A stretch of DNA of 64,000 bases. It comes from Pseudothauera nasutitermitis. GTDB lineage: Bacteria; Pseudomonadota; Gammaproteobacteria; Burkholderiales; Rhodocyclaceae. Below the pieces are notes generated by a model. That model had not been told where the DNA came from, did no database searches, and saw only the letters and a list, made by a program, of their open reading frames with translations. Position 1 is the stretch's first letter; each line of letters starts with the position of its first letter. Shown here piece after piece: positions 1,857 through 56,270 of the stretch. The stretch lies in NCBI RefSeq assembly GCF_004801295.1, contig NZ_SSOC01000003.1:1-64000 (forward strand), given 5' to 3'. Made by a program: the position numbers and the translations under genes.

Positions 1857-4174
1857 CGTGCGCTCACGTTGAAGCTGCGCGGGGCGCCCCAGGTGTAGCC
1901 AAGGCCTTGGTACCCGGCGATGACATACGAGAAGTACTTCTTGTCGAACACGTTGTTGATGTTGGCGCTGATGCTCAACTGGCTGGTGACCTGGTAGCGC
2001 GCCATCAGGTCCAGCAGCCAGTAGCTGGGTTGTTGCACCTTGCTGCCCGCAAAACTGGCGGATGTTGCGGTCGTGGTGCTCTGCCAGCGGGTGGCCGCCC
2101 CTACCGTCAGGCCCTGGAGATGGCCGTCCGCGAAGCGATAGGTGCTGCCCAGCTTGAACTGGTGCTTGGGGTCGGACCCGGCATTGCTCAGGTTGCTGCT
2201 GTTCATCGTGTAGCCGCCCTGCACCTGCCAGCCCCGCGCCAGTTCGCCGGAAAGCTCCAGTTCGTAGCCGCGCCGGCTGGCGCCCATGATTGCCCGATAC
2301 GCATAATCGCCGCTGGGCGTCCTGCCGCCAGTAGCCTCTGCCTCGTTGTCGGTTCTGATCCAGAAATGGCTGATGCTGGCGTTCAGGCGCTTGTCGAAGA
2401 ATTCGCCTTTGGCACCGACTTCATAGGTCAGGCCCTCTCGGGGGTCAAGGATGCGCCCTTGCTCATCCTGACTGCTCTGGGGCTCGAAGATGCTGGCATA
2501 GCTGCCGTACAGCGAGACGTTCTTGCTGACATCGAACACCAGCCCGGCGTAGGGCGTGACCACACCGGTTTCTTTCAGACCACTGCCTCCCCACAGTGTT
2601 GTGTAGTCCTGATTTTCGTAGTTGGTGATCCGCGCACCCACAATGACTTTGAGCGGGTCGGCCAGATTGATGCGGCTTGCTGCGTACACATAGCGTTGCT
2701 TCCAATCGTGATGGCTGGCTCCAAACTTATTCGAGTCAAAGTCAGTATCGCCATTGGAAGCGCCAGCCCCAAGCAGCACATCATGGGTTCGGCCAAACAG
2801 GTGCACCGGGCCTTTCAGGTCGGCAATGATGCTGGAATTGCGGTTTTCGGTATCGAGATAGCGGGTGGCGGTATCGAAGTCGCCTCCAGAATCACCCAAC
2901 AGCAGTTCAGGGATTTCGATGTTTTCATGCGCCACCTGGATTTTGCCCGTCCACCCATTGGCGAACTGGTGCTCCAGGCGTGCGAAGACGTTGGTTGATT
3001 CCTGCTCATAGCCTGACCAGGATGCGCCTGGGTTGTACGAGCGCGGCTTCCCGCCCAGGAACTGCGTGGGGTCGCTGGCGCTGTAGGCCACAATGTTGGT
3101 CCACATGGCCAGGCCGCGCACCTCGCGCTTGCGATAGGTCAAACCGGCGCTGAGCACGGTGTCGGGAGTCAGATCGAATTCCACCGTGCCATACAAAGTC
3201 CGGCTCTTGTTCTTTTCATAATCGCGGAAGCTGTCGCCATCGGTCACCGCCGCGGCCACGCGGCCGCGCAGCGTGCCGCTGGCATTGAGCGGGCCGCCCA
3301 CATCCGCGTTGGCGTTGTAGTTGTTCCAGCTTCCCGCACTGGCGCCCACCCGCGCCTGGAACTCGCGCGTGGGGCGTTTGCGGATCAGGTTGACGGTCGC
3401 CCCCGTGTTGCCCTTGCCGACCAGCAGGCCATTGGAGCCTTTCAAGACTTCGATGCGATCAATATCCACCATGCTGTCCAGCGTGAAGTTGGTACTGCTG
3501 AAGTAGGCGTAGCCAGATGCGAGTTGCTGGTTGCCTTCGGTTTGCAGATTGACGCTGGTGCCACGCGCCTGGAAGCCGACATGGCTGCCCTGCCGGACGA
3601 CCGTGATGCCCGGCGTCTGCTCCATCACATCGGTCAGCGTTTCCAGCTTGAAGTCGTCCATGCGCTGGCGGGTCATCACGGTCAGTGATTGGGGAGTTTC
3701 GCGCAGCGTCAGGCTCAGGCCGGTGGCGGCACCGCTGGGACCGGTCTGGGTGTAGCTGCCGGTGCCTTCCGTGGTGCCACTGCGGTCAGCGGCGGCGGTG
3801 ACCGTCACCGGCGCCAGCGTGGTGCCTCCTTCCTTGTCCCGGACCACGGTGAAGGTGTTGGCGCCGCTGGGCTGGACCGCGAGCCCGCTGCCGGCGAGCA
3901 GTTGCCGCAGCGCCTGCTCGACGGTGAGCTGGCCGCGCAGCGCCGGAGCGTGCTGGGTGTTGGCGATGTCGGTGACGAAGACGATCTGCGCGCCGCTTTG
4001 CCGGGCCAGCGCGTTGAGCGCCTTGTCGAGCGGCTGGGCGGGGAGGTCGAGATCGAGCGCCGCGCCCTGGGCCAGGGCGATGCCACTGCTCAGCAGGGCC
4101 GCGGCCAGGGTGGTGAGGGCGGCGAGGCGCCGGACGGCGGCGGGCCGGTGCGGGGTCTTGCGGGAATGGAGCAT
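1844..4174 (-). CDS. TonB-dependent siderophore receptor with N-terminal signalling (STN) domain
   Basis: A 776-residue outer-membrane receptor. Residues 1-36 are a signal peptide ending ...SSGIALA. An STN (secretin/TonB short N-terminal) domain follows at about 37-105 (LDLPAQPLDKALNALARQSG), then a linker, the plug at about 140-260 (LRETPQSLTVMTRQRMDD, IDRIEVLKGSNGLLVGKG) and a 22-strand barrel ending in aromatic YDF. The STN domain is the part that contacts a FecR anti-sigma regulator, and fecR/fecI-like genes lie directly upstream on the same strand. The start at 4174 is supported by AAGGGA upstream and the signal peptide; the open frame continues to 4816 but that part shadows fecR. The plug and barrel resemble FpvA/FoxA-type ferric siderophore receptors. 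The exact ligand is unknown. Confidence 0.9.
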   Translation of the reverse strand: MLHSRKTPHRPAAVRRLAALTTLAAALLSSGIALAQGAALDLDLPAQPLDKALNALARQSGAQIVFVTDIANTQHAPALRGQLTVEQALRQLLAGSGLAVQPSGANTFTVVRDKEGGTTLAPVTVTAAADRSGTTEGTGSYTQTGPSGAATGLSLTLRETPQSLTVMTRQRMDDFKLETLTDVMEQTPGITVVRQGSHVGFQARGTSVNLQTEGNQQLASGYAYFSSTNFTLDSMVDIDRIEVLKGSNGLLVGKGNTGATVNLIRKRPTREFQARVGASAGSWNNYNANADVGGPLNASGTLRGRVAAAVTDGDSFRDYEKNKSRTLYGTVEFDLTPDTVLSAGLTYRKREVRGLAMWTNIVAYSASDPTQFLGGKPRSYNPGASWSGYEQESTNVFARLEHQFANGWTGKIQVAHENIEIPELLLGDSGGDFDTATRYLDTENRNSSIIADLKGPVHLFGRTHDVLLGAGASNGDTDFDSNKFGASHHDWKQRYVYAASRINLADPLKVIVGARITNYENQDYTTLWGGSGLKETGVVTPYAGLVFDVSKNVSLYGSYASIFEPQSSQDEQGRILDPREGLTYEVGAKGEFFDKRLNASISHFWIRTDNEAEATGGRTPSGDYAYRAIMGASRRGYELELSGELARGWQVQGGYTMNSSNLSNAGSDPKHQFKLGSTYRFADGHLQGLTVGAATRWQSTTTATSASFAGSKVQQPSYWLLDLMARYQVTSQLSISANINNVFDKKYFSYVIAGYQGLGYTWGAPRSFNVSARYDF

Positions 4175-4193
4175 CACGTGTCCCTTTCTACGG

Positions 4194-4215
4194 TAATGAG
4201 AAGAATTACTCTTCG
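4194..4215. promoter_or_regulatory. possible Fur-type or sigma-dependent site upstream of the receptor
   Basis: The stretch TAATGAGAAGAATTACTCTT is AT-rich, partly palindromic (GAAGA-N5-TCTTC) and sits 20-40 bases ahead of the receptor start. It resembles a degenerate Fur box, but it could equally be part of a promoter used by the FecI-type sigma factor. Confidence 0.35.
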
Positions 4216-4289
4216 TATGCCGTTTCGGGGTCTGGCAATGTACACCTTGTGGTGGAAATTTTTCTGAGGTGGGGGCCGGTGGGATTGGC

Positions 4290-4420
4290 GGCACTCGCAT
4301 CTGTCCCCCCCACCCCTCCCACTCGAAGGGAGAGGGGGGGTGTGCGGGGATTACCAAGCCGCCCCTCTTCGGCACGTGCAGCCCTCCGCCGAAAGGAGAG
4401 GGAGGGGTGGCCGGGAAACG
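4290..4420. repeat. GC-rich palindromic extragenic repeats (two units)
   Basis: Between the receptor and fecR lie C-run/G-run palindromes of the form CCCCTCCC...CGAAGGGAGAGGGG (about 4308-4336) and CCCTCCGCC...GAAAGGAGAGGGAGGG (about 4380-4410). Related units occur at about 35330-35440 and 60597-60625, so this is a dispersed intergenic repeat family. Confidence 0.5.
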
Positions 4421-4427
4421 TTCAGCC

Positions 4428-5339
4428 TCAAGGAGCGGGCAGGCGCTCGACGTGGGGGGTGCCGTCGGCGGAACGGCCGAGGCGGACCGGGGCGAAGCGC
4501 GGCAGCAGGTCGATGAGCTGTTCGCGGTTGCCCAGGTCGAACTGGCCGGAGATGCGCAATTGCGCGGCGTCGCTGCCCAGGGTGACGGGCAGCGGGCCGT
4601 AGCGGCGCAGTTCGTCGACGACTTCCGCGAGCGGGGTGTTGTCGAAGACGATGCGGCCGTCGTGCCAGGCGGTGAGGTTGTCGACTTCGGCCGGCACCGG
4701 CCGGCCGGGTGCTTGCGGGGTGGTACGCAACATCTGGCCCCGGCCGAGTTCGACGCTTTCCGTGTGGCCGTTGTCGACGCGCACGCGGCCTTGCTGGACG
4801 CTGACTTCGACCGCATCGCCGGGCAGGCGGCGGACGTTGAAGGTGGTGCCGATGTCTTCGATGCGCGTGCCGCCGGCTTGCACGGTGAAGCGCCGTTCCA
4901 GCGCCGGCAGCAGGCCGTGCCAGGGAGCGTGGGCGACGTCGAAGGTGGCTTCGCCGCTTGCCAGCGAGAGCCGGCGCGAGCGTAGGTGCAGGGCGACGTC
5001 GACGCGGGAGTCGGTGTTGAGATGCACCCGGCTGCCGTCGGAGAGCGTCCAGACGCCGCTTTCCCCCAACACGGTGGTCATGGTCTGGGTCTGGTAGACG
5101 GGGTCGATCCACCAGGCGATACCCAGGGCGAGGCCAAGCGCCAGGGCGATGCCGGCGCGGCGCACGCGGGCGCTACGCTGGCGTTGCTCGGCACGCTGGA
5201 TGATGTCGTCTGCACTGGGCAACTGAGCGCGCAGAGCATCGGCGTAAGGCGCCAGGGCGCTTTCCAGTGCCACGACACGCACGCCGCGTGCTCCGGATGT
5301 CGGTGCACAGGCTGGAGAGGGTTTGCGCGGGTCAGTCAT
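4428..5339 (-). CDS. FecR-like anti-sigma/transmembrane sensor
   Basis: A 303-residue FecR-type protein. It has a cytoplasmic N-terminal part of about 60 residues, one transmembrane segment near 62-78 (GIALALGLALGIAWWI), then a periplasmic FecR domain with the family pattern WTLSDGSRVHLNTDSRVDVAL, LSLASGEATFDVAH and GTTFNVRRLPGDAVEVSVQQ. A C-terminal segment (FDNTPLAEVVDELRRYGPLP) resembles the STN-interacting domain. It should relay receptor occupancy across the inner membrane to the sigma factor encoded just upstream. Its start overlaps the sigma gene by 8 bases, indicating translational coupling. Confidence 0.9.
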   Translation of the reverse strand: MTDPRKPSPACAPTSGARGVRVVALESALAPYADALRAQLPSADDIIQRAEQRQRSARVRRAGIALALGLALGIAWWIDPVYQTQTMTTVLGESGVWTLSDGSRVHLNTDSRVDVALHLRSRRLSLASGEATFDVAHAPWHGLLPALERRFTVQAGGTRIEDIGTTFNVRRLPGDAVEVSVQQGRVRVDNGHTESVELGRGQMLRTTPQAPGRPVPAEVDNLTAWHDGRIVFDNTPLAEVVDELRRYGPLPVTLGSDAAQLRISGQFDLGNREQLIDLLPRFAPVRLGRSADGTPHVERLPAP

Positions 5340-5886
5340 GATCGTGCAGCACCGGCAGGATGTCTTCCAGCGAGCGGGCCAGGTGGCGCGCGATCATGCC
5401 GCGCGAGATGCGCAGCTTGTCGGCCACTTCGGCCTGCGGCATGTGGTAGAGGTGGATCAGGATGAAGACTTCCTGGCTGCGCGGCGGCAGGCCGCGAATG
5501 GCGCACAGCAAGGCTTGTTCGCGCTGCTGCCGGAGGGCGGCGAGTTCAGGCGAGGTCAGCCCGCTGGCGCCGCCGCCATCGCAGGCGAGTTCGCCGGGCA
5601 GGCAGTCGGTGGTGTCGATCAGCCCGGCGTAGGCACGTTCGCTGCGGCAGCGGTCGATGGCGGTGTGCATGGCCATGCGCCGCAGAAAGGCCAGCGGAAT
5701 CTGGATGTCTTGTGCCGGTGCCGGGTTCTTCAGCACTTTCAGGCAGACCTCATGCACCACTTCCTGGGCAAAGGCCTTGTCGCCGAAGCGGCGGCGGACG
5801 TAGCCGATCAGTTCATCGTAGTGGGCGACGATGGCCTGAAGCAGGGACGGAGAGCCGGAGGGGGAGGACAGCATGGCGTGGGGCAC
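5332..5886 (-). CDS. FecI-like ECF sigma factor
   Basis: A 184-residue extracytoplasmic-function sigma factor. Region 2 is visible at about 20-90 (YVRRRFGDKAFAQEVVHEVCLKVL, AFLRRMAMHTAIDRCRSERA) and region 4 at about 125-178 (IRGLPPRSQEVFILIHLYHM, then VADKLRISRGMIARHLARSLEDIL). It is first in the order sigma, fecR, receptor, as in classical iron-surface-signalling loci, and probably directs transcription of the receptor. A second in-frame ATG four codons in (5874) is an alternative start. A Fur-like sequence lies just upstream. Confidence 0.9.
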   Translation of the reverse strand: MPHAMLSSPSGSPSLLQAIVAHYDELIGYVRRRFGDKAFAQEVVHEVCLKVLKNPAPAQDIQIPLAFLRRMAMHTAIDRCRSERAYAGLIDTTDCLPGELACDGGGASGLTSPELAALRQQREQALLCAIRGLPPRSQEVFILIHLYHMPQAEVADKLRISRGMIARHLARSLEDILPVLHDHD

Positions 5887-5914
5887 GGGGAAAACCAGCC
5901 GATCTTACTGGTTT

Positions 5915-5933
5915 CCATTCTCATTTACAAAAT
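5915..5933. promoter_or_regulatory. putative Fur box upstream of the ECF sigma gene
   Basis: The minus strand reads GTAAATGAGAATGGAAACC, a good match to one half and the core of the Fur consensus (AATGAGAAT). It lies 30-47 bases before the sigma gene start. Iron repression of a fecI-type gene by Fur is the usual arrangement. Confidence 0.5.
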
Positions 5934-6020
5934 GAGGGGCAAGAATGCTGCGCCCTGCCCCACCCGATCACCCGCCTTGGCACGGTATGCGCAGAATGGG
6001 CAGATGCCGCGCCGCCCACC

Positions 6021-6905
6021 TCAACCCGGCAGCAGGCGCTCCGCATGGGCGTAGGCCACCAGGCGGTCGCCGCGAGCGAAGCCGGCCAGCAGCAGGCCGC
6101 TGTATTCGGCCATGCGGCAGGCCATGGCGGTGGGTGCGGAAACCGCGACCAGTGCGCCGATGCCAGCGCGCGCGCTCTTCTGCACCATCTCGTAGCTCGC
6201 CCGGCTGGAGACCAGCGCGAAGCCCTGCGCCGCTTCCGCGTCGCCCTCGGCAAGGCGCGCGGCGCGCCAGCCGATGAGCTTGTCGAGGGCGTTGTGGCGG
6301 CCGACGTCCTCGCGCACCGCGACGATGCCGCCGTCCGGGCGCACCCAGGCGGCGGCGTGCGCGGCGCCGGTGCGCGCGCGTACCGGCTGGTGGCGGTCGA
6401 GTTCGGCGAGCGCGGCGCTCACCGCCGGGGCGGCGAGCACGGTGTCGCCCGCCAGTTGCGGCATGGCGCGGTCGAATTCGGCCAGGCTGTCGACGCCGCA
6501 CAAGCCGCAGCCGGTGCGCCCGGCCAGCGCGCGGCGGCGCTCCTTGAGGGCAGCGAGGCGGCGTGCGGCGATTTCGATGCGCACCTCGATGCCGTTGGGC
6601 AGGGAAAACACCTCCCGGTCGAAGACTTCATCGGCGCTTTCGACGATGCGCTCGCTGAGTGTGAAGCCGAGGGCAAAGTCTTCCAGATCGGCCGGCGAGG
6701 CCAGCATGACCGCGTGGGAGATGCCGTTGAACACCAGGGCCACCGGCACTTCCTCGACCAGTTCGTCCACGTCGTCGCGCGCCGCCTGCCCGGCCGCCAG
6801 GCGCCGCACGGCGACCGCGCGGGCGGTCGGCCAGTGTGCCGGGTCGAAGTCGCGGGGTGCGGCTTCGGGCGGGCAGGCGGCGGGTTCGGATGTCATCGGC
6901 GGCAC
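6021..6905 (-). CDS. fdhD: formate dehydrogenase sulfurtransferase/accessory protein FdhD
   Basis: A 294-residue FdhD. Visible family features are EVPVALVFNGISHAVMLASP, the conserved ALGFTLSERIV, the cysteine pair in GRTGCGLCGV that relays sulfur from IscS, and VREDVGRHNALDKLIGWR. FdhD transfers sulfur to the molybdenum/tungsten bis-pterin cofactor before it is placed in formate dehydrogenase; without it the enzyme is inactive. It closes the minus-strand fdo transcription unit, 10 bases after the gamma-subunit gene. An in-frame ATG three codons downstream is an alternative start. Confidence 0.93.
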   Translation of the reverse strand: MPPMTSEPAACPPEAAPRDFDPAHWPTARAVAVRRLAAGQAARDDVDELVEEVPVALVFNGISHAVMLASPADLEDFALGFTLSERIVESADEVFDREVFSLPNGIEVRIEIAARRLAALKERRRALAGRTGCGLCGVDSLAEFDRAMPQLAGDTVLAAPAVSAALAELDRHQPVRARTGAAHAAAWVRPDGGIVAVREDVGRHNALDKLIGWRAARLAEGDAEAAQGFALVSSRASYEMVQKSARAGIGALVAVSAPTAMACRMAEYSGLLLAGFARGDRLVAYAHAERLLPG

Positions 6906-11881: not shown

Positions 11882-12784
11882 ATGACCTCCAGCCCCCCGA
11901 CCCCGAATTTCACCCCCGGCCCCACGCCCAACGGGCACCTCGCCCCCCGCCCCGCCAGCCTGTTTGCCGCGCGCGCACGCCGCCTGCGCGAACTCGCGGC
12001 CGATGCCGCGCTGGCCGACTGGCTGCGCTTCGTCGCCCATCTGGCCGACGCGCAGGCCGACGTGCAGCGCCTTCTCGACGAAGACATCCGCGCGGCCGGC
12101 TGCCTGGATGCCGCCGGCCATCTCGACCTCGTCCGCCTGCCCGCCCTGCCGCTGTGGCAGCGCGCCGCCGTCCTGCTCGCCGAGCGCATCGCCGCCGTCG
12201 ATAGCCCCGCCGCCGCCAAGGCCGCGCGCGCCCTGCTCGCCCTCGACGACGGCACGCGTGAAGCCCTGGCCCTGCGCGTGCTGGGCGGTGAGACGCGTGC
12301 CGAGGACCTGCACGGTGCCCCGCTGGCCTGTGCCGCGCTCGAACTGCTGGCCACCGGTGCGGCCGCGCTGGCGCGCCCGCAGATCCATACAGGCATCGGG
12401 AAAAGCTGTCCGGTGTGCGACGGCCCCGCACTCGTCGCCACGCTGGAAACCAGCGCCACCAGCGGCCTGCGCTATCTGCACTGCGCGCACTGCAACACCG
12501 CCTGGCACCACGTGCGCGCGCAATGCACGCATTGCCACGACGCGCGCGGCGTTTCCTACCAGTCGCTGGAAAAAGCAGAGGAAATCCCGCTCTGGCGTGC
12601 GGAAACCTGCGATGCCTGCCACGCCTACCTGAAGCTGTTCGACCGCACGAAGGTGCGTGAACTCGACCCGGTGGCCGACGACCTGGCCAGCCTGGAACTC
12701 GACCTTGCGCTCGGCGAGGCCGGCTACCGCCGCACCGGCGCCAACGCCTACCTGCTGCTGCTCGGCGAGCACGCCGGCGCCTGA
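11882..12784 (+). CDS. fdhE: formate dehydrogenase accessory protein FdhE
   Basis: A 300-residue FdhE. The C-terminal half carries four CxxC pairs (CPVC, CAHC, CTHC, CDAC) forming rubredoxin-like iron sites, as in the E. coli protein needed for formate dehydrogenase maturation. The N-terminal helical part has LADAQADVQRLLDED. The ATG at 11882 matches the family N-terminus, though no good ribosome-binding site precedes it; the frame is open up to 11786. The stop codon TGA (12782-12784) is one copy of the 3-bp duplication flanking the foldback element that follows, so the element landed exactly in the stop and preserved the reading frame's end. Confidence 0.9.
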   Translation: MTSSPPTPNFTPGPTPNGHLAPRPASLFAARARRLRELAADAALADWLRFVAHLADAQADVQRLLDEDIRAAGCLDAAGHLDLVRLPALPLWQRAAVLLAERIAAVDSPAAAKAARALLALDDGTREALALRVLGGETRAEDLHGAPLACAALELLATGAAALARPQIHTGIGKSCPVCDGPALVATLETSATSGLRYLHCAHCNTAWHHVRAQCTHCHDARGVSYQSLEKAEEIPLWRAETCDACHAYLKLFDRTKVRELDPVADDLASLELDLALGEAGYRRTGANAYLLLLGEHAGA

Positions 12785-13050
12785 GAGCCTGTCTACGCTC
12801 TTTTCATGGGTCCCGTTTCCCCGCCAGGCCGGTCGATGCAAGGCACAAAACGCAGTCGGGCTGGTGGCCCGGCGAGTATTTGTAACGCCGCAGCGGCCGG
12901 CCTGGCGGGGAAACCCGAAGGGCAGCCGCCCAAAGCGTTCCGCTCCGCGTTGCACGCCTTGCCAAGACATCCGGTATTGGCTGCGCCACGCGCCTTGAGC
13001 GGAACGCTTTGGGCGGCTGCGGGACCCATGAAAAGAGCGTAGACAGGCTC
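12785..13050. mobile_element. 266-bp MITE-like foldback element with nested inverted repeats
   Basis: Terminal inverted repeats of at least 30 bp (12785-12814 with 13021-13050, beginning GAGCCTGTCTACGCTCTTTT) match perfectly. They are flanked by TGA at 12782-12784 and 13051-13053, consistent with a 3-bp target duplication. Inside are two further perfect hairpins: 12815-12832 with 12897-12914 (18 bp) and 12922-12945 with 12997-13020 (24 bp). The whole could fold into a three-stem, cloverleaf-like structure. There is no coding capacity, so transposition would need a transposase supplied elsewhere. I do not recognise the parent insertion-sequence family. Confidence 0.8.
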
Positions 13051-13190
13051 TGAGAAGCAGCGCGGGCGGGTATGGCCGGGGTGATCGGGCGCAGGCTTCC
13101 CGGCACCGGTCTGCGGCCTGCCGGAATCACATCGATGCTTATCTGCTTAGCGGGCTGTCGATAGCGCCTGCATAGATATACAAACACAGG

Positions 13191-13208
13191 ATAAATTAAT
13201 GAATTTAT
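13191..13208. promoter_or_regulatory. AT-rich palindrome upstream of the yeiH unit
   Basis: ATAAATT-AATG-AATTTAT is a perfect 7+7 inverted repeat in an AT-rich island (about 13165-13220) that stands out from the GC-rich surroundings. It lies about 130 bases before the small membrane gene. The shape fits a LysR-type operator, but no LysR gene is adjacent. The rest of 13054-13336 shows nothing else I can name. Confidence 0.4.
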
Positions 13209-13336
13209 TTTGTTTTTGAGTTTCCGCGCCGGCTGGCACGATTTCATCGACCAGCGCCGGCAGCAGACCAGATTCTTCCCGGCAAGCTGATCGATGCACC
13301 GCCATAAATACATGCTGCATGTTCAGGAGAATTGCC

Positions 13337-13486
13337 ATGAGTCAGAAAGAAGATCTGGACGCCACCGCAACGGATACCGGCCCGGGCGGCAAAGCCCTGA
13401 ATGAGGATTGGCTCGCGACGATCGTGGGCCTCGCGATTCTCGCGCTGGCCCTGCTCGGCTTCATTCCCAGGGAGGTACTCTGGTAA
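13337..13486 (+). CDS. 49-residue single-span membrane protein upstream of yeiH
   Basis: A short gene, MSQKEDLDATATDTGPGGKA then LNEDW, one transmembrane segment (LATIVGLAILALALLGFI) and a short PREVLW tail. AGGAG lies 8 bases before the ATG, and the stop overlaps the yeiH start (TAATG), so the two are translationally coupled. The layout (acidic soluble N-terminus, one helix) and coupling suggest a small partner or stabiliser of the YeiH transporter. That role is inferred only from position. Confidence 0.8.
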   Translation: MSQKEDLDATATDTGPGGKALNEDWLATIVGLAILALALLGFIPREVLW

Positions 13487-50811: not shown

Positions 50812-53031
50812 TCACGGACAGACCGCAAGACCATCCAAAGCCGCCGCCCTGGCGCGCGCGCCGTGCAGCTTTTTGTAGCTGTCGATCAGGCGCTGGTGCC
50901 GGTCCAGCCCTTCCAGCTGCATGCTCGTCGGCGTCAGGCCGAAGAATCGCACGCTGCCATCCACCGAGCCCATCACCGCATCCATCCTCGGATTGCCGAA
51001 CATCCGGCGGAAATTGGCCTCGTAATCGTCCAGTTCCAGTTCGTCATCCAGCAGCACCTCCAGCACCACATTCATGGCCTGGTAGAACAATCCGCGCTCG
51101 ACCGTGTTTTCGTTGTACTGCAAAAAGGCTTCCACCGACTCTTTCGCCGCGTCGAACTGCCGCAAGGCCAGGCGGATCAACAATTTCAGTTCCAGAATCG
51201 TCAACTGGCCCCAGACCGTATTTTCATCGAACTCGATACCGATCAAGGTGATGATGTCGGTGTAGTCATCCAGCTCGCTGTCTTCCAGCCGCTCAAGCAG
51301 CGCTTCCAGGCCGGCATCGTCCAGACGGTGCAGATTCAGGATGTCTTCGCGGAACAGCAGCGCCTTGTTGGTGTTGTCCCAGACCAGATCCTCCACCGGA
51401 TACACTTCCGAATAGCCCGGCACCAGAATCCGGCAGGCCGTGGCGCCCAGATTCTCGTACACCGCCACGTACACTTCCTTGCCCATGCCTTCGAGCAGGC
51501 CGAACAAGGTGGCGGCCTCCCCGGCGTTGGCGTTTTCACCTTGGCTGGTGAAATCCCATTCGACGAAATCGTAATCCGCCCTGGCACTGAAAAAACGCCA
51601 AGACACCACGCCGCTGGAATCGATGAAGTGCTCGACGAAGTTGTTCGGCTCGGTCACCGCATTGCTTTCAAAAGTGGGCCGGGGCAAATCGTTCAGCCCT
51701 TCAAAACTGCGCCCCTGCAGCAACTCCGTAAGGCTGCGCTCCAGCGCCACCTCCAGGCTCGGGTGGGCGCCGAACGAAGCGAACACACCGCCGGTACGCG
51801 GATTCATCAAGGTCACGCACATCACCGGAAACGCCCCGCCCAGCGACGCATCCTTCACCAGCACCGGAAAACCCTGCTGCTCCAGGGCCTGAATGCCCGC
51901 CACAATGCCGGGATATTTCGCCAGCACTGCGTGCGGCACATCGGGCAGTGCGATTTCACCTTCCAGGATTTCGCGCTTGACCGCCCGTTCGAATATTTCC
52001 GACAGGCATTGCACCTGCGCTTCGGCCAAGGTATTGCCCGCGCTCATGCCGTTGCTGAGAAACAGGTTGTCGATCAGGTTGCTTGGAAAGTACACCACCT
52101 CGCCGTCCGACTGGCGCACGTACGGCAGCGCGCAAATGCCGCGCTCGACGTTGCCGGAATTGGTGTCGTACAGATGCGAGCCGCGCAACTCGCCATCGGG
52201 GTCGTAGATTTCCAGGCAGTACTCGTCGAGCATGCCGGCCGGCAGCGCGTCCCCGGGGCCCGGCTGGAACCAGCGCTCGTCGGGGTAATGCACGAACGCC
52301 GCATTGGCGATGTCTTCCCCCCAGAACTGGTCATTGTAGAAATGATTGCAATTCGTCCGCTCGATGAATTCGCCCAGCGCCGACGCCAACGCGCTTTCCT
52401 TGGTCGCCCCCTTGCCATTGGTGAAGCACATCGGCGAGTGCGCGTCGCGGATGTGCAGCGACCACACATTGGGCACCAGATTGCGCCACGAAGCGATCTC
52501 GATCTTCATGCCGAGGCCCGCCAGCACGCCCGACAGGTTGGCGATGGTTTGTTCCAGCGGCAAATCCTTGCCCGCGATACAGGTCTTCGTTTCCGCAGCC
52601 GAATCCAGCATCAGCAATGACTGCGCATCGGCATCCAGATTCTCCACCTCTTCGATCACGAACTCCGGTCCGGTCTGCACGACCTTCTTCACCGTGCAGC
52701 GTTCGATGGAGCGCAGAATGCCCTGGCGATCCTTGGCGGAAAGTTCCTCCGGCAATTCAACCTGTATCTTGAAAATCTGCTTGTAGCGGTTTTCCGGATC
52801 GACAATATTGTTCTGCGACAGACGGATGTTATCGGTCGGAATATTGCGGGTCTCGCAGTACAACTTCACGAAATACGCCGCGCACAAAGCCGATGACGCC
52901 AGAAAATAGTCGAACGGCCCCGGCGCCGAGCCATCGCCCTTGTAGCGGATGGGCTGATCGGCGATGACCGTGAAGTCGTCGAATCGGGCTTCGAGGCGAA
53001 GCTTGTCGAGAAAATTGACCTTGATTTCCAT
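50812..53031 (-). CDS. OsmC domain-YcaO domain fusion protein
   Basis: A 739-residue two-domain protein. Residues 1-140 are an OsmC-like domain (EARFDDFTVIADQPIRYKGD, ASSALCAAYFVKLYCETRNI). From about 165 is a YcaO ATP-binding domain (TNGKGATKESALASALGEFI, ERTNCNHFYNDQFWGE, AEAQVQCLSEIFERAVKREI, SFGAHPSLEVALERSLTELL), then an acidic helical tail to the end. E. coli YcaO acts with RimO in beta-methylthiolation of ribosomal protein S12; other YcaO enzymes make azoles or thioamides in peptides. The lack of a precursor peptide or dehydrogenase nearby favours the housekeeping role. It is convergent with the ScfR-like gene. Confidence 0.88.
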   Translation of the reverse strand: MEIKVNFLDKLRLEARFDDFTVIADQPIRYKGDGSAPGPFDYFLASSALCAAYFVKLYCETRNIPTDNIRLSQNNIVDPENRYKQIFKIQVELPEELSAKDRQGILRSIERCTVKKVVQTGPEFVIEEVENLDADAQSLLMLDSAAETKTCIAGKDLPLEQTIANLSGVLAGLGMKIEIASWRNLVPNVWSLHIRDAHSPMCFTNGKGATKESALASALGEFIERTNCNHFYNDQFWGEDIANAAFVHYPDERWFQPGPGDALPAGMLDEYCLEIYDPDGELRGSHLYDTNSGNVERGICALPYVRQSDGEVVYFPSNLIDNLFLSNGMSAGNTLAEAQVQCLSEIFERAVKREILEGEIALPDVPHAVLAKYPGIVAGIQALEQQGFPVLVKDASLGGAFPVMCVTLMNPRTGGVFASFGAHPSLEVALERSLTELLQGRSFEGLNDLPRPTFESNAVTEPNNFVEHFIDSSGVVSWRFFSARADYDFVEWDFTSQGENANAGEAATLFGLLEGMGKEVYVAVYENLGATACRILVPGYSEVYPVEDLVWDNTNKALLFREDILNLHRLDDAGLEALLERLEDSELDDYTDIITLIGIEFDENTVWGQLTILELKLLIRLALRQFDAAKESVEAFLQYNENTVERGLFYQAMNVVLEVLLDDELELDDYEANFRRMFGNPRMDAVMGSVDGSVRFFGLTPTSMQLEGLDRHQRLIDSYKKLHGARARAAALDGLAVCP

Positions 53032-53189
53032 ACGGGAATTCCAGAAACGCTTGAATCGAATGGGCCGCCATTATCGTGGTTTCCCGCCGGGAAAACCGAT
53101 CTTCTTGGCAGCGGAAACATGCGGCATACCGGCGCCGGCAAGGGCATCCACGCGCGCCCTGCGCGCCGGGGCAGGCTCAGCCCTGGCTC

Positions 53190-53313
53190 CGGATCGCTCA
53201 ACGGATGCGCTCCGCTGTGCCGCGCCCTGAAATGATCCTCGACGGCCTCTTCCGGCATGTCCGCCAGCGTGGCGTACTGCCAGCGCGGACTGCGGTCCTT
53301 GGGGCAAATGCTG
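53190..53313 (-). pseudogene. C-terminal remnant of a 3-hydroxyisobutyryl-CoA hydrolase gene
   Basis: The minus strand reads PKDRSPRWQYATLADMPEEA then VEDHFRARHSGAHPLSD, which aligns closely with the last 40 residues of the hydrolase at 44451-45593 (DKDHQPRWRYATLDAVPDEA, VEDHFKPRYGGPHPLAD). No start codon or remaining body is present and the frame runs on past the expected end. It is a decayed partial copy. Confidence 0.75.
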
Positions 53314-53327
53314 ATCGCTATCCATTC

Positions 53328-53369
53328 TTGATAGAGGTCAATCAACCTATAGTAGGCCGCGAGTAATAT
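53328..53369 (+). promoter_or_regulatory. FNR/Anr-type class II promoter of the anaerobic ribonucleotide reductase
   Basis: TTGATAGAGGTCAA (53328-53341) matches the FNR consensus TTGAT-N4-ATCAA with one difference. A -10-like TAATAT lies at 53364-53369. This places the box centre about 41.5 bases before the expected transcript start, the class II activation position. The nrdD start follows at 53401. Confidence 0.65.
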
Positions 53370-53400
53370 CGCACTACATTTAGTACGAAAGGTGATTTCC

Positions 53401-55431
53401 ATGCACAACCCCACCCAGGCCGACCCGGCCACTCTGCCCCACGAAGCGATCAAGCGCGATGGACGACGCGCGCCCTTCGACGCCATCAAGATCCAGGCCG
53501 CGCTGCGCCGCGCCGGCGCCGCCAGCGGCGAGTTCGGCGATGCCGAGGCCGGCCGGCTCACCGCCCGTGTGCTGCGCGTGCTCGGCCACCGCTTCGGCCA
53601 CCATGCGGTGCATATCGAGCAGATCCAGGACGTGGTGGAGGAAACCCTGATCGCCGACGGCCTCACCGCCACCGCGCGCGCCTACATCGTCTACCGCGAA
53701 CAGCACGCCGTGCTGCGCGGCGAGCGCAAGGTGCAGGTGGACGTGGAAGCCTCGGTCAACGAATACCTCACCCGCGCCGACTGGCGGGTCAATGCCAACG
53801 CCAACCAGGGCTATTCGCTGGGCGGGCTGATCCTCAACGTGGCCGGCAAGGTCACCGCCAACTACTGGCTGTCGCACGTCTACCCGCCCGAGGTGGGCGC
53901 CGCGCACCGCGAGGGCGACCTCCACATCCACGACCTGGACATGCTGTCCGGCTACTGCGCGGGCTGGTCGCTGCGCACCCTGCTGCACGAGGGCCTCAAC
54001 GGCGTCCCGGGCAAGGTGGAAGCCGGCCCGCCCAAACACATGTCGAGCGCGGTGGGACAGATCGTGAATTTCCTCGGCACCATGCAGAACGAATGGGCGG
54101 GGGCGCAGGCCTTCTCGTCCTTCGATACCTACATGGCGCCCTTCGTGCGCAAGGACAACATGCGCTACGAGGAGGTCCGCCAGCACATCCAGGAACTCAT
54201 CTACAACCTCAACGTGCCCTCGCGCTGGGGCACGCAGACGCCCTTCACCAACCTCACCTTCGACTGGACCTGCCCGGACGACCTGAAGGAGCAGATCCCC
54301 GTCATCGCCGGCGAGGAAATGCCCTTCGCCTACGGCGACCTGCAGGCCGAGATGGACCTGATCAACCGCGCCTACATCGAGGTCATGTCCGCCGGCGACG
54401 CCAAGGGCCGGGTGTTCACCTTTCCCATCCCGACCTACAACATCACCCCGGACTTTCCGTGGGAGTCGGACAACGCCGCGCTGCTGTTCGACATGACCGC
54501 CAAGTACGGCCTGCCCTACTTCCAGAATTTCGTGAACTCGGAACTGCAGCCCAACATGGTGCGCTCCATGTGCTGCCGCCTGCAACTCGACCTGCGCGAA
54601 CTGCTCAAGCGCGGCAACGGCCTGTTCGGCAGCGCCGAGCAGACCGGCAGCCTGGGCGTGGTGACGATCAACTGCGCCCGCCTGGGCTATCTTTTCCGTG
54701 GCGACGAAGCGGGCTTGTTCGCCCGCCTGGACGCCCTGCTGGAAATCGGCCGCAGCAGCCTGGAGATCAAGCGCAAGCTGATCCAGCGCCTCATCGACCA
54801 GGGCCTGTTCCCCTACACCAAGCGCTATCTCGGCACGCTGCGCAACCACTTCTCCACGCTGGGGGTGAACGGCATCAACGAGATGATCCGCAACTTCAGC
54901 GCGGACACCGAGGACGTCACCACCGAATGGGGCCACGCCTTCGCCGTACGCCTGCTCGACCACGTGCGCGCGCGCATGACCGCCTTCCAGGAAGAAACCG
55001 GGCATATGTACAACCTGGAAGCCACCCCGGCCGAGGGCACCACCTACCGCTTCGCCCGCGAGGACAAGAAACGCTGGCCGGACATCCTGCAGGCCGGCAC
55101 CGCCGAGCAGCCCTACTACACCAACTCCTCGCAACTGCCCGCCGGCTTCACCGACGACCCCTTCGAAGCCCTCGCGCGCCAGGAAGCCCTGCAACGCAAA
55201 TACACCGGTGGCACGGTGCTGCACCTCTACATGGGCGAGCGTCTGTCCAGCGGCGAGGCGTGCAAGCGCCTGGTGCGCCGTGCGCTGGAAAACTTCCGCC
55301 TGCCCTACATCACCGTGACGCCGACCTTCTCCATCTGCCCGGCGCACGGCTACCTGGCCGGCGAGCACGCCTTCTGCCCGAAGTGCGACGAGGAGCGCCT
55401 GGCCGCCAAGCGGGCACGGCTCGCGGCCTGA
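53401..55431 (+). CDS. nrdD: anaerobic ribonucleotide reductase large subunit, lacking the glycyl-radical segment
   Basis: A 676-residue class III reductase. An ATP-cone domain occupies about 15-105 (IKRDGRRAPFDAIKIQAALR). Catalytic cysteines are visible at C186 (MLSGYCAGWSL) and C391/C392 (RSMCCRLQLDLREL), and a C-terminal zinc site at CPAHGYLAGEHAFCPKCDEE. The protein then stops after AAKRARLAA, before the RVxGYxRPV glycyl-radical motif that normally follows the zinc site; that motif is encoded by the next gene. The ATG at 53401 has AAAGGTGA upstream; a GTG at 53392 is possible. It reduces ribonucleoside triphosphates during anaerobic growth. Confidence 0.93.
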   Translation: MHNPTQADPATLPHEAIKRDGRRAPFDAIKIQAALRRAGAASGEFGDAEAGRLTARVLRVLGHRFGHHAVHIEQIQDVVEETLIADGLTATARAYIVYREQHAVLRGERKVQVDVEASVNEYLTRADWRVNANANQGYSLGGLILNVAGKVTANYWLSHVYPPEVGAAHREGDLHIHDLDMLSGYCAGWSLRTLLHEGLNGVPGKVEAGPPKHMSSAVGQIVNFLGTMQNEWAGAQAFSSFDTYMAPFVRKDNMRYEEVRQHIQELIYNLNVPSRWGTQTPFTNLTFDWTCPDDLKEQIPVIAGEEMPFAYGDLQAEMDLINRAYIEVMSAGDAKGRVFTFPIPTYNITPDFPWESDNAALLFDMTAKYGLPYFQNFVNSELQPNMVRSMCCRLQLDLRELLKRGNGLFGSAEQTGSLGVVTINCARLGYLFRGDEAGLFARLDALLEIGRSSLEIKRKLIQRLIDQGLFPYTKRYLGTLRNHFSTLGVNGINEMIRNFSADTEDVTTEWGHAFAVRLLDHVRARMTAFQEETGHMYNLEATPAEGTTYRFAREDKKRWPDILQAGTAEQPYYTNSSQLPAGFTDDPFEALARQEALQRKYTGGTVLHLYMGERLSSGEACKRLVRRALENFRLPYITVTPTFSICPAHGYLAGEHAFCPKCDEERLAAKRARLAA

Positions 55432-55459
55432 TCACCCAATTTTCCCCAAGGAGCACGCC

Positions 55460-55657
55460 ATGAACATGCATTCCGCCACCGAAACCCGGCACCTCGCCGA
55501 CACCATCACCCTCAGCGACGACGAGCGCCAGCCCTGCGAAGTGTGGACGCGCGTGATGGGCTACCACCGCCCGGTCGCCAGTTTCAACACCGGCAAGAAG
55601 GGCGAGCATGCCGAACGGCGCTTCTTCGCCGAGAACCGCTGCGCGCTCGGCGGCTGA
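55460..55657 (+). CDS. separate glycyl-radical subunit of the anaerobic ribonucleotide reductase
   Basis: A 65-residue protein with CEVWTRVMGYHRPVASFNTG then KKGEHAERRFF, matching the C-terminal glycyl-radical segment of single-chain NrdD enzymes (RVxGYxRPVxxFNxGKxxE); Gly34 is the candidate radical site. It has its own ATG and ribosome site (AAGGAGCACGCC) 28 bases after the nrdD stop and is followed 13 bases later by nrdG. It should associate with the large subunit and be activated by NrdG. Confidence 0.88.
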   Translation: MNMHSATETRHLADTITLSDDERQPCEVWTRVMGYHRPVASFNTGKKGEHAERRFFAENRCALGG

Positions 55658-55670
55658 ACCCGGCCCCCGC

Positions 55671-56270
55671 ATGCACGCCCTGCGCGTCGGCGGCCTCACG
55701 CCGCTGACCACCATCGACTTTCCCGGCCGGCTCGCCGCCGTGGTGTTCTGCCAGGGCTGCCCGTGGCGCTGCGGCTACTGCCACAACCCGCAGTTGATTG
55801 CGGCGGGCGCGGCGCCGGAGCGGCCGTGGCAGGCGGTGCTGGATTTCCTCGCCCGGCGGCGCGGGCTGCTCGACGGCGTGGTGTTCTCCGGTGGCGAACC
55901 CACCTTGCAGGCGGCGCTGCCGGAGGCGCTGCGCGAGGTCAGGGCGATGGGGTTCGAAACCGCGCTGCACACCGCCGGCATGTACCCGGAGCGCCTCGCC
56001 GCCGTGCTGCCGCTGCTCGATTGGGTGGGGCTGGACATCAAGGCGCCGGCGCAACACTACGACGCCATCACCGCCACGCCCGGCAGCGCGGACGCCGTGC
56101 AGCGCTCGCTGGACCTGCTGCTGGCCAGCGGCGTGGAGCACGAATGCCGCACCACCTGGCACGCTGGGCTGTTCAGCCGGGAAGAACTCGACCGCCTGGG
56201 CGACGGACTGAAGGCGCGTGGCGTGCGGCGCTGGCAGGTTCAGGAGTGCCGCCAGGGTCAGCGGCAGTAG
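55671..56270 (+). CDS. nrdG: anaerobic ribonucleotide reductase activating enzyme
   Basis: A 199-residue radical-SAM activase. The cluster motif is CQGCPWRCGYCHNPQLI (CxxxCxxC), followed by VVFSGGEPTLQAALPE and WVGLDIKAPAQHYDAI. It uses S-adenosylmethionine to create the glycyl radical, here presumably on the separate 65-residue subunit. The ATG at 55671 matches the family start; the upstream frame overlaps that subunit and is not needed. Confidence 0.92.
   Translation: MHALRVGGLTPLTTIDFPGRLAAVVFCQGCPWRCGYCHNPQLIAAGAAPERPWQAVLDFLARRRGLLDGVVFSGGEPTLQAALPEALREVRAMGFETALHTAGMYPERLAAVLPLLDWVGLDIKAPAQHYDAITATPGSADAVQRSLDLLLASGVEHECRTTWHAGLFSREELDRLGDGLKARGVRRWQVQECRQGQRQ

Follow-up and report, generated by a model that had tools for sequence, protein, structure and literature searches.

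The glycyl radical enzyme class III (anaerobic) ribonucleotide reductase (RNR) is known in a single-chain form, and the question raised by the nrdD locus of Pseudothauera nasutitermitis is whether the reductase encoded there is made of two chains. In the 64,000-nucleotide stretch of DNA analysed here (the window), three genes follow one another in one direction: nrdD, a small gene for a glycyl-radical domain, and nrdG (Table 1). We consider it very probable that they specify a two-chain class III RNR, in which an obligatory small subunit would carry the glycyl radical in trans after its installation by NrdG. At the level of sequence, support for this reading comes from the division of one enzyme family over two genes, the wide conservation of this division, separate translation starts, purifying selection and one case in which the two genes are unlinked.

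Table 1. Features of the nrdD locus, in window coordinates
Feature	Position	Strand	Description
Candidate FNR/ANR-type box TTGATAGAGGTCAA	53328..53341	+	about 60 bp 5' of the nrdD start; 1 mismatch to TTGAT-N4-ATCAA
nrdD, class III RNR large (catalytic) subunit	53401..55431	+	676 aa, 75.7 kDa, without glycyl-radical domain; ATG 53401 (alternative start GTG 53392, giving 679 aa); protein C-terminus ...CPAHGYLAGEHAFCPKCDEERLAAKRARLAA; TGA 55429-55431
Cys391-Cys392, MCCR finger-loop motif	54571..54576	+	expected thiyl-radical cysteine; invariant in 19/19 alignment rows
Predicted zinc site Cys646-x2-His649-x9-Cys659-x2-Cys662	55336..55386	+	end of the large chain; 4/4 residues invariant in 19 rows
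Spacer with Shine-Dalgarno AAGGAG (55448-55453)	55432..55459	+	28 nt, between nrdD and the small gene
Small-subunit gene, glycyl-radical domain	55460..55657	+	65 aa, 7.4 kDa; PF13597 positions 530-562; ATG 55460, stop 55655-55657; protein contains CEVWTRVMGYHRPVASFNTG; Cys26 at 55535-55537; expected radical Gly34 at 55559-55561
nrdG, radical-SAM activase, NrdG2 type	55671..56270	+	TIGR02495 201.9 bits (cut-off 131.15); alternative ATG 55608 would overlap the small gene

The box upstream of nrdD was called from TTGAT-N4-ATCAA, which we take to be the FNR/ANR-type consensus, and the window contains three matches of this type against 0.34 expected; no match to a sigma-70-type promoter was found in 53030-53460. 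The divergent neighbour of nrdD (50812-53031, minus strand) encodes an OsmC-YcaO protein, and E. coli ycaO lies next to focA-pflB, which is also a glycyl radical locus.

The large chain covers positions 2-531 of the 562 in PF13597 and 4-651 of the 684 in PRK08270, and the small chain covers 530-562 and 649-682 of the same models; because the coverage is complementary, with an overlap of only 2-3 positions, the two chains together split a single family model. This bears out the original prediction that the 676-residue NrdD lacks the glycyl-radical motif and that the next gene, with its own ATG and ribosome-binding site 28 nt further on, encodes the missing segment. The large chain scored 1130 bits against PRK08270 (cut-off 548), 581 bits against PF13597 and 77.4 bits against the ATP-cone family PF03477, and the small protein scored 31.1 bits against PF13597 (cut-off 26.2), its sole Pfam match at E<=0.001. 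No glycyl-radical domain was matched on the large chain by either PF13597 or PRK08270, and we therefore class the enzyme as a two-chain variant rather than a canonical NrdD. The other sequence features of a class III RNR are in place, namely the barrel, ATP-cone, finger-loop cysteine, C-terminal residues of the predicted metal site and NrdG. The MCCR finger-loop motif agrees with the motif class given in the excerpted text of PMC9669993, and the CxxHx9CxxC zinc motif may be compared with CxxxHx6CxxC in Thermotoga NrdD, as quoted from part of PMC4493059. An AlphaFold model of the large chain alone was of moderate confidence (mean pLDDT 66.5) and too weak to reveal a vacant docking slot; the 36 PDB chains that matched it with the lowest E-values were all from class III RNRs. 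Comparison of the small gene with a homologue from the same genus (dS 0.24, dN 0.04) and with that of Cupriavidus necator (dS 1.22, dN 0.30) indicates that it evolves under purifying selection, and the Arg and Gly of the RVMG motif are kept in 114/114 distinct split homologues compared.

Related loci gave 127 split rows representing 118 distinct loci, which were used for the analysis of spacing and frame. These loci bear on the alternative that NrdD is in fact a single chain produced through a programmed frameshift or readthrough of the stop, or that the split is a sequencing error. The small frame of the window is open across the nrdD stop (stop-to-stop 55319-55654), such that the chains could be fused by a +1 shift close to the TGA, and 29 of the 118 loci have nrdD and the small gene in one frame, where readthrough would be possible for each taken singly. 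Against a fused product, the frame offset of the small gene relative to nrdD varies (46, 43 and 29 loci over the three frames), its start lies anywhere from -55 to +298 nt relative to the nrdD stop, and in 50/118 loci, including the 29 same-frame loci, the small frame does not open before that stop. The small gene starts with ATG in all 118, and a 5- or 6-base match to the Shine-Dalgarno sequence precedes it in 71 of 78 loci with a single candidate ATG as compared with 103 of 1924 nrdD-internal ATGs; single-ATG loci are the fairer sample here because start choice elsewhere partly used the Shine-Dalgarno site. The split also recurs in many separate assemblies, and in one genome (G044, locus L228) nrdD (1997-4042) is separated by ~9 kb from a small gene-nrdG pair (12444-13398) on one 113-kb contig. 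As nrdD and the small gene are unlinked in this genome, the two chains cannot arise from one reading. A fused or misread NrdD is thus very improbable, in keeping with the earlier argument against a simple frameshift, and the placement of the radical site on a separate chain, also proposed at the outset, is upheld by both the PF13597 division and G044. The genes between nrdD and the small gene-nrdG pair in G044 resemble those of anaerobic metabolism; by eye we take them to include ubiU/ubiV, hemN and an FNR-type regulator.

The partner of the small chain should be the NrdD encoded beside it. PF13597 matches in the P. nasutitermitis genome are limited to nrdD and the small gene, no PF01228 (PFL/YfiD) match was found there at E<=0.01, so that with these two models no partner other than this NrdD is recovered, and, of 120 distinct split loci, 114 have nrdG adjoining the small gene. 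These results leave very little probability, less even than for a fused chain, to the proposal that a PFL-type enzyme uses the small protein as a spare part in the manner of YfiD/GrcA, with nrdD as its neighbour by chance. Small stand-alone glycyl-radical proteins of that kind do exist, YfiD and T4 Y06I being the examples in the available portion of PMC8683613, but the protein described here matches only PF13597 in Pfam, its own genome is without PF01228, NrdD misses precisely this segment and an NrdG-type activase adjoins. The same genome also encodes two class I/II type RNR barrels, and the class III RNR therefore need not be essential in this organism.

The split form is common, and it is in the majority over the single-chain form in the class sampled. 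A small-gene match was obtained in 12 of 61 genomes (P. nasutitermitis, which is counted, and relatives), with an nrdD frame directly upstream in 11 of the 12; the twelfth is G044. A sample of 369 genomes from across the class contains 37 with PF13597 (P. nasutitermitis included), and by reading of the rows 28 are split, 7 are single-chain (G387, G114, G281, G312, G155, G073 and G321) and 2 are fragments that are undecidable (G290, G396); the 28 include G350 and G373, where contig ends also truncate the barrel. The expectation that class III enzymes are normally single chains consequently fails in this sample of the class. Long open frames in G216 and G319 were considered as fused NrdD and rejected, since the nrdD chain ends in another frame in each and both are split. 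A profile of 19 small proteins matched 35/369 class genomes and 17/398 phylum genomes, single-chain relatives included. In a named genome collection, the best 80 of at least 575 relatives comprised 74 split loci, 6 without nrdD directly upstream and no fused chain, figures that are not a prevalence because choosing the best matches favours split forms. In a plasmid collection, 28 records matched the small gene, some within a single chain, and of 10 examined 7 have a separate small gene (by annotation, one via sequence) and 3 a fused chain. Hosts with small-gene matches include Alpha-, Beta- and Gammaproteobacteria and Sulfuricurvum. An Allochromatium plasmid record has no nrdD adjoining its small gene, and small genes distant from nrdD could have another function. 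An Azospira plasmid (L017, 1-5561) is annotated with class I alpha, nrdD, the small gene, nrdG and class I beta genes in that order.

Natural single-chain relatives with the same domain fused were found at L018, L224, L225, L238 and L239. An extra Cys before EVW was rejected as a marker of the split form, as it is also present in the fused chains of Acidiphilium, Acidithiobacillus and Actinomyces. In an NrdD tree built by a quick method, with 103 rows left from 133 after removal of short and contained rows, the nearest named row to the window is Thauera linaloolentis, and the fused Acidiphilium/Acidithiobacillus and G281 rows are placed among split rows with 80-92% support. The position of fused chains (L018, L239, L224) among split rows hints at refusion, in a tree whose deep branches are weak and in which long branches meet.

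How the two chains might work together can be proposed from the single-chain enzyme, in which the activase makes the radical on a glycine of the C-terminal loop, poised for transfer to the finger loop (PMC9669993, excerpted text). In the two-chain enzyme, the large subunit would contribute the barrel, nucleotide sites, finger-loop cysteines and zinc knuckle, while NrdG, with SAM and an Fe-S cluster, would generate the radical on Gly34 of the small subunit. The small chain would then bind at the site that, in a single-chain NrdD, is filled by the covalently attached C-terminal tail, and hand the radical to a finger-loop cysteine, at which point catalysis would start. It should be obligatory, as the large chain has no radical domain of its own. 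Oxygen cleaves glycyl radical enzymes at the radical glycine, and a likely benefit of the arrangement would be that such damage costs only a cheap 7-kDa part.

Copies of the small gene elsewhere, in bacteria and in viruses, would be further supplies of this radical part. An extra small gene besides the nrdD-linked copy is present in G327 (at the same coordinates as in G845), G841, G842, G843 and G844. The extra gene of Magnetospirillum fulvum (L115, G842; 3144-6757) lies directly 5' of class I nrdA- and nrdB-type genes, that of BMS3Bbin13 (L103, G845) ~2.2 kb past the 3' end of a gene for an RNR barrel, and those of two Sutterellaceae loci (L096, L138) in a context that by eye looks chromosomal (transporter, aldo/keto reductase, regulators), with no phage genes recognised alongside by eye.

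In a virus collection, the best 80 of 166 relatives (L144-L223) were analysed. In these 80, no nrdD frame was found in the 1500 nt upstream of the small gene (10 are near a contig edge), and no NrdD-like protein was called in their loci. Each of 41 virus records searched whole gave one PF13597 match, to the radical domain only, and no NrdD barrel; of 20 records searched further, none has a class I/II barrel and one has a radical-SAM domain. The radical glycine is invariant in the 62 distinct virus copies, in an RVMG motif or, in one copy, RCMG, with one alignment row one column off. The ERxxC motif of the split form is common to most of the 62, and the extra Cys before EVW is missing in 4. Several copies (L176, L192, L209, L218 and L221, at ~3800-4200, and L181, at ~900) have a cysteine-rich stretch before the radical domain, which is possibly a metal knuckle.

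We consider it reasonably likely that phages and some bacteria carry an autonomous glycyl-radical subunit that would plug into the two-chain class III RNR of a host. The virus copies might instead act as decoys, tying up the NrdD or NrdG of the host and thereby blocking its class III RNR. That they stand alone, in records where the searches above recovered no NrdD barrel (41 records), no class I/II barrel and a radical-SAM domain only once (20 records), would suit a decoy, as would the lysis or packaging genes that adjoin some of them; a decoy would not need an invariant radical glycine, though, and a block of dNTP supply should hurt phage replication, which makes this explanation unlikely. 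Less probable again is an origin of the copies as fragments or relics of host DNA, in contigs misclassified as viral. The virus records may be fragments, none having scored >=90% complete, and 50,697 deposited phage records gave only two weak matches, with none from a further search of deposited phages. Set against this, endolysin, Rz-like spanin, terminase, portal, helicase and head-tail families were matched beside copies at some loci, in a scan of 146 neighbouring proteins from 49 of the 62 distinct loci in which no family had more than 6 matches. In addition, nrdG lies next to none of 64 virus copies (9 of them without room for it) as compared with the 114 of 120 host split loci, the 80 virus loci are without a called NrdD-like protein, and the archaeal virus ANMV-1 has a more distant 145-aa gene of this kind, already annotated as anaerobic RNR. 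On balance we retain the autonomous subunit, with which phages may supply a replaceable radical part to host enzymes.

The proposed enzyme shares with the single-chain NrdD/NrdG systems of Thermotoga maritima and T4 the ATP-cone (where present), barrel, finger-loop cysteine, zinc knuckle, radical loop and activase, but differs in that the radical domain is a separate 65-aa chain with its own ~22-residue leader and a conserved ERxxC. It resembles YfiD/GrcA and T4 Y06I acting with pyruvate formate-lyase in that a small chain bears the radical in trans by means of the enzyme's own activase, which is proposed here and has been shown there. The likeness to YfiD drawn in the original prediction accordingly stands for the in-trans mechanism proposed, but not for the role: YfiD belongs to another family (PF01228, unmatched here) and rescues a damaged enzyme by replacing a domain that PFL also has, whereas the large NrdD has none and the small chain would be an obligatory subunit.

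Class II RNRs are without a protein storage radical, and a split of a class II enzyme therefore sets no radical domain apart. Such a split is known in Pseudomonas aeruginosa, where NrdJa and NrdJb, encoded by consecutive genes 16 bp apart (PMC4009431, in part), form one RNR from two neighbouring genes as proposed for the window, but a class II, B12-dependent one. A further parallel, by annotation, is plasmid pHG1 of C. necator H16, which has the same split (676 + 66 aa + NrdG) and which, unlike the window, has been studied genetically. Its nrdD product is 676 aa and 76,191 Da; a mass of 76.2 kDa is reportedly stated in the 1999 abstract of Siedow and would correspond to the large chain without the small one. 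The nrdDG genes of pHG1 are reported as essential for complete denitrification (PMC2864759, available text, citing Siedow 1999). Several RefSeq plasmid records, pHG1 among them, give the small product the name 'anaerobic ribonucleoside-triphosphate reductase, nrdD'. The split form is thus already present in annotation and, for C. necator, in genetics.

The available text of six RNR reviews and database papers (PMC4390871, PMC9669993, PMC9531940, PMC2795772, PMC4009431, PMC3019208) makes no mention of the split, and we found no account of a two-chain class III RNR or of a virus-borne subunit in the accessible text of the open-licence literature searched. A study of phage RNRs describes, in its excerpted text, nrdD genes that are intron-split or broken into pieces (PMC3653736). 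What is new here is a stand-alone radical subunit in virus contigs, with no NrdD detected nearby among the best 80 of 166 relatives. The phage family phrog_4132, a 179-position model with no function assigned, matches all 8 small proteins scanned (that of the window and 7 from viruses), with the matched domain near the end of the model; the window protein matches it over residues 20-59 (E 3.7e-9), and its gene lies in a bacterial operon with no phage genes seen alongside.

For the annotation and expression of NrdD, the split carries the warning that a large chain taken alone would be an incomplete enzyme. A detachable radical subunit would open radical installation, oxygen damage and subunit exchange to study as bimolecular steps, and a testable function can be offered for phrog_4132. 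According to the portion of PMC8683613 available, only PFL spare parts have been validated and spare parts for other enzymes are possible, a question for which the split RNR would be a concrete case. If the autonomous subunit is confirmed, it would make up a family of spare parts serving a glycyl radical enzyme that is not PFL. Its gene, mostly of ~50-90 aa, would then be a minimal auxiliary gene that drives anaerobic dNTP synthesis while encoding neither reductase nor activase.
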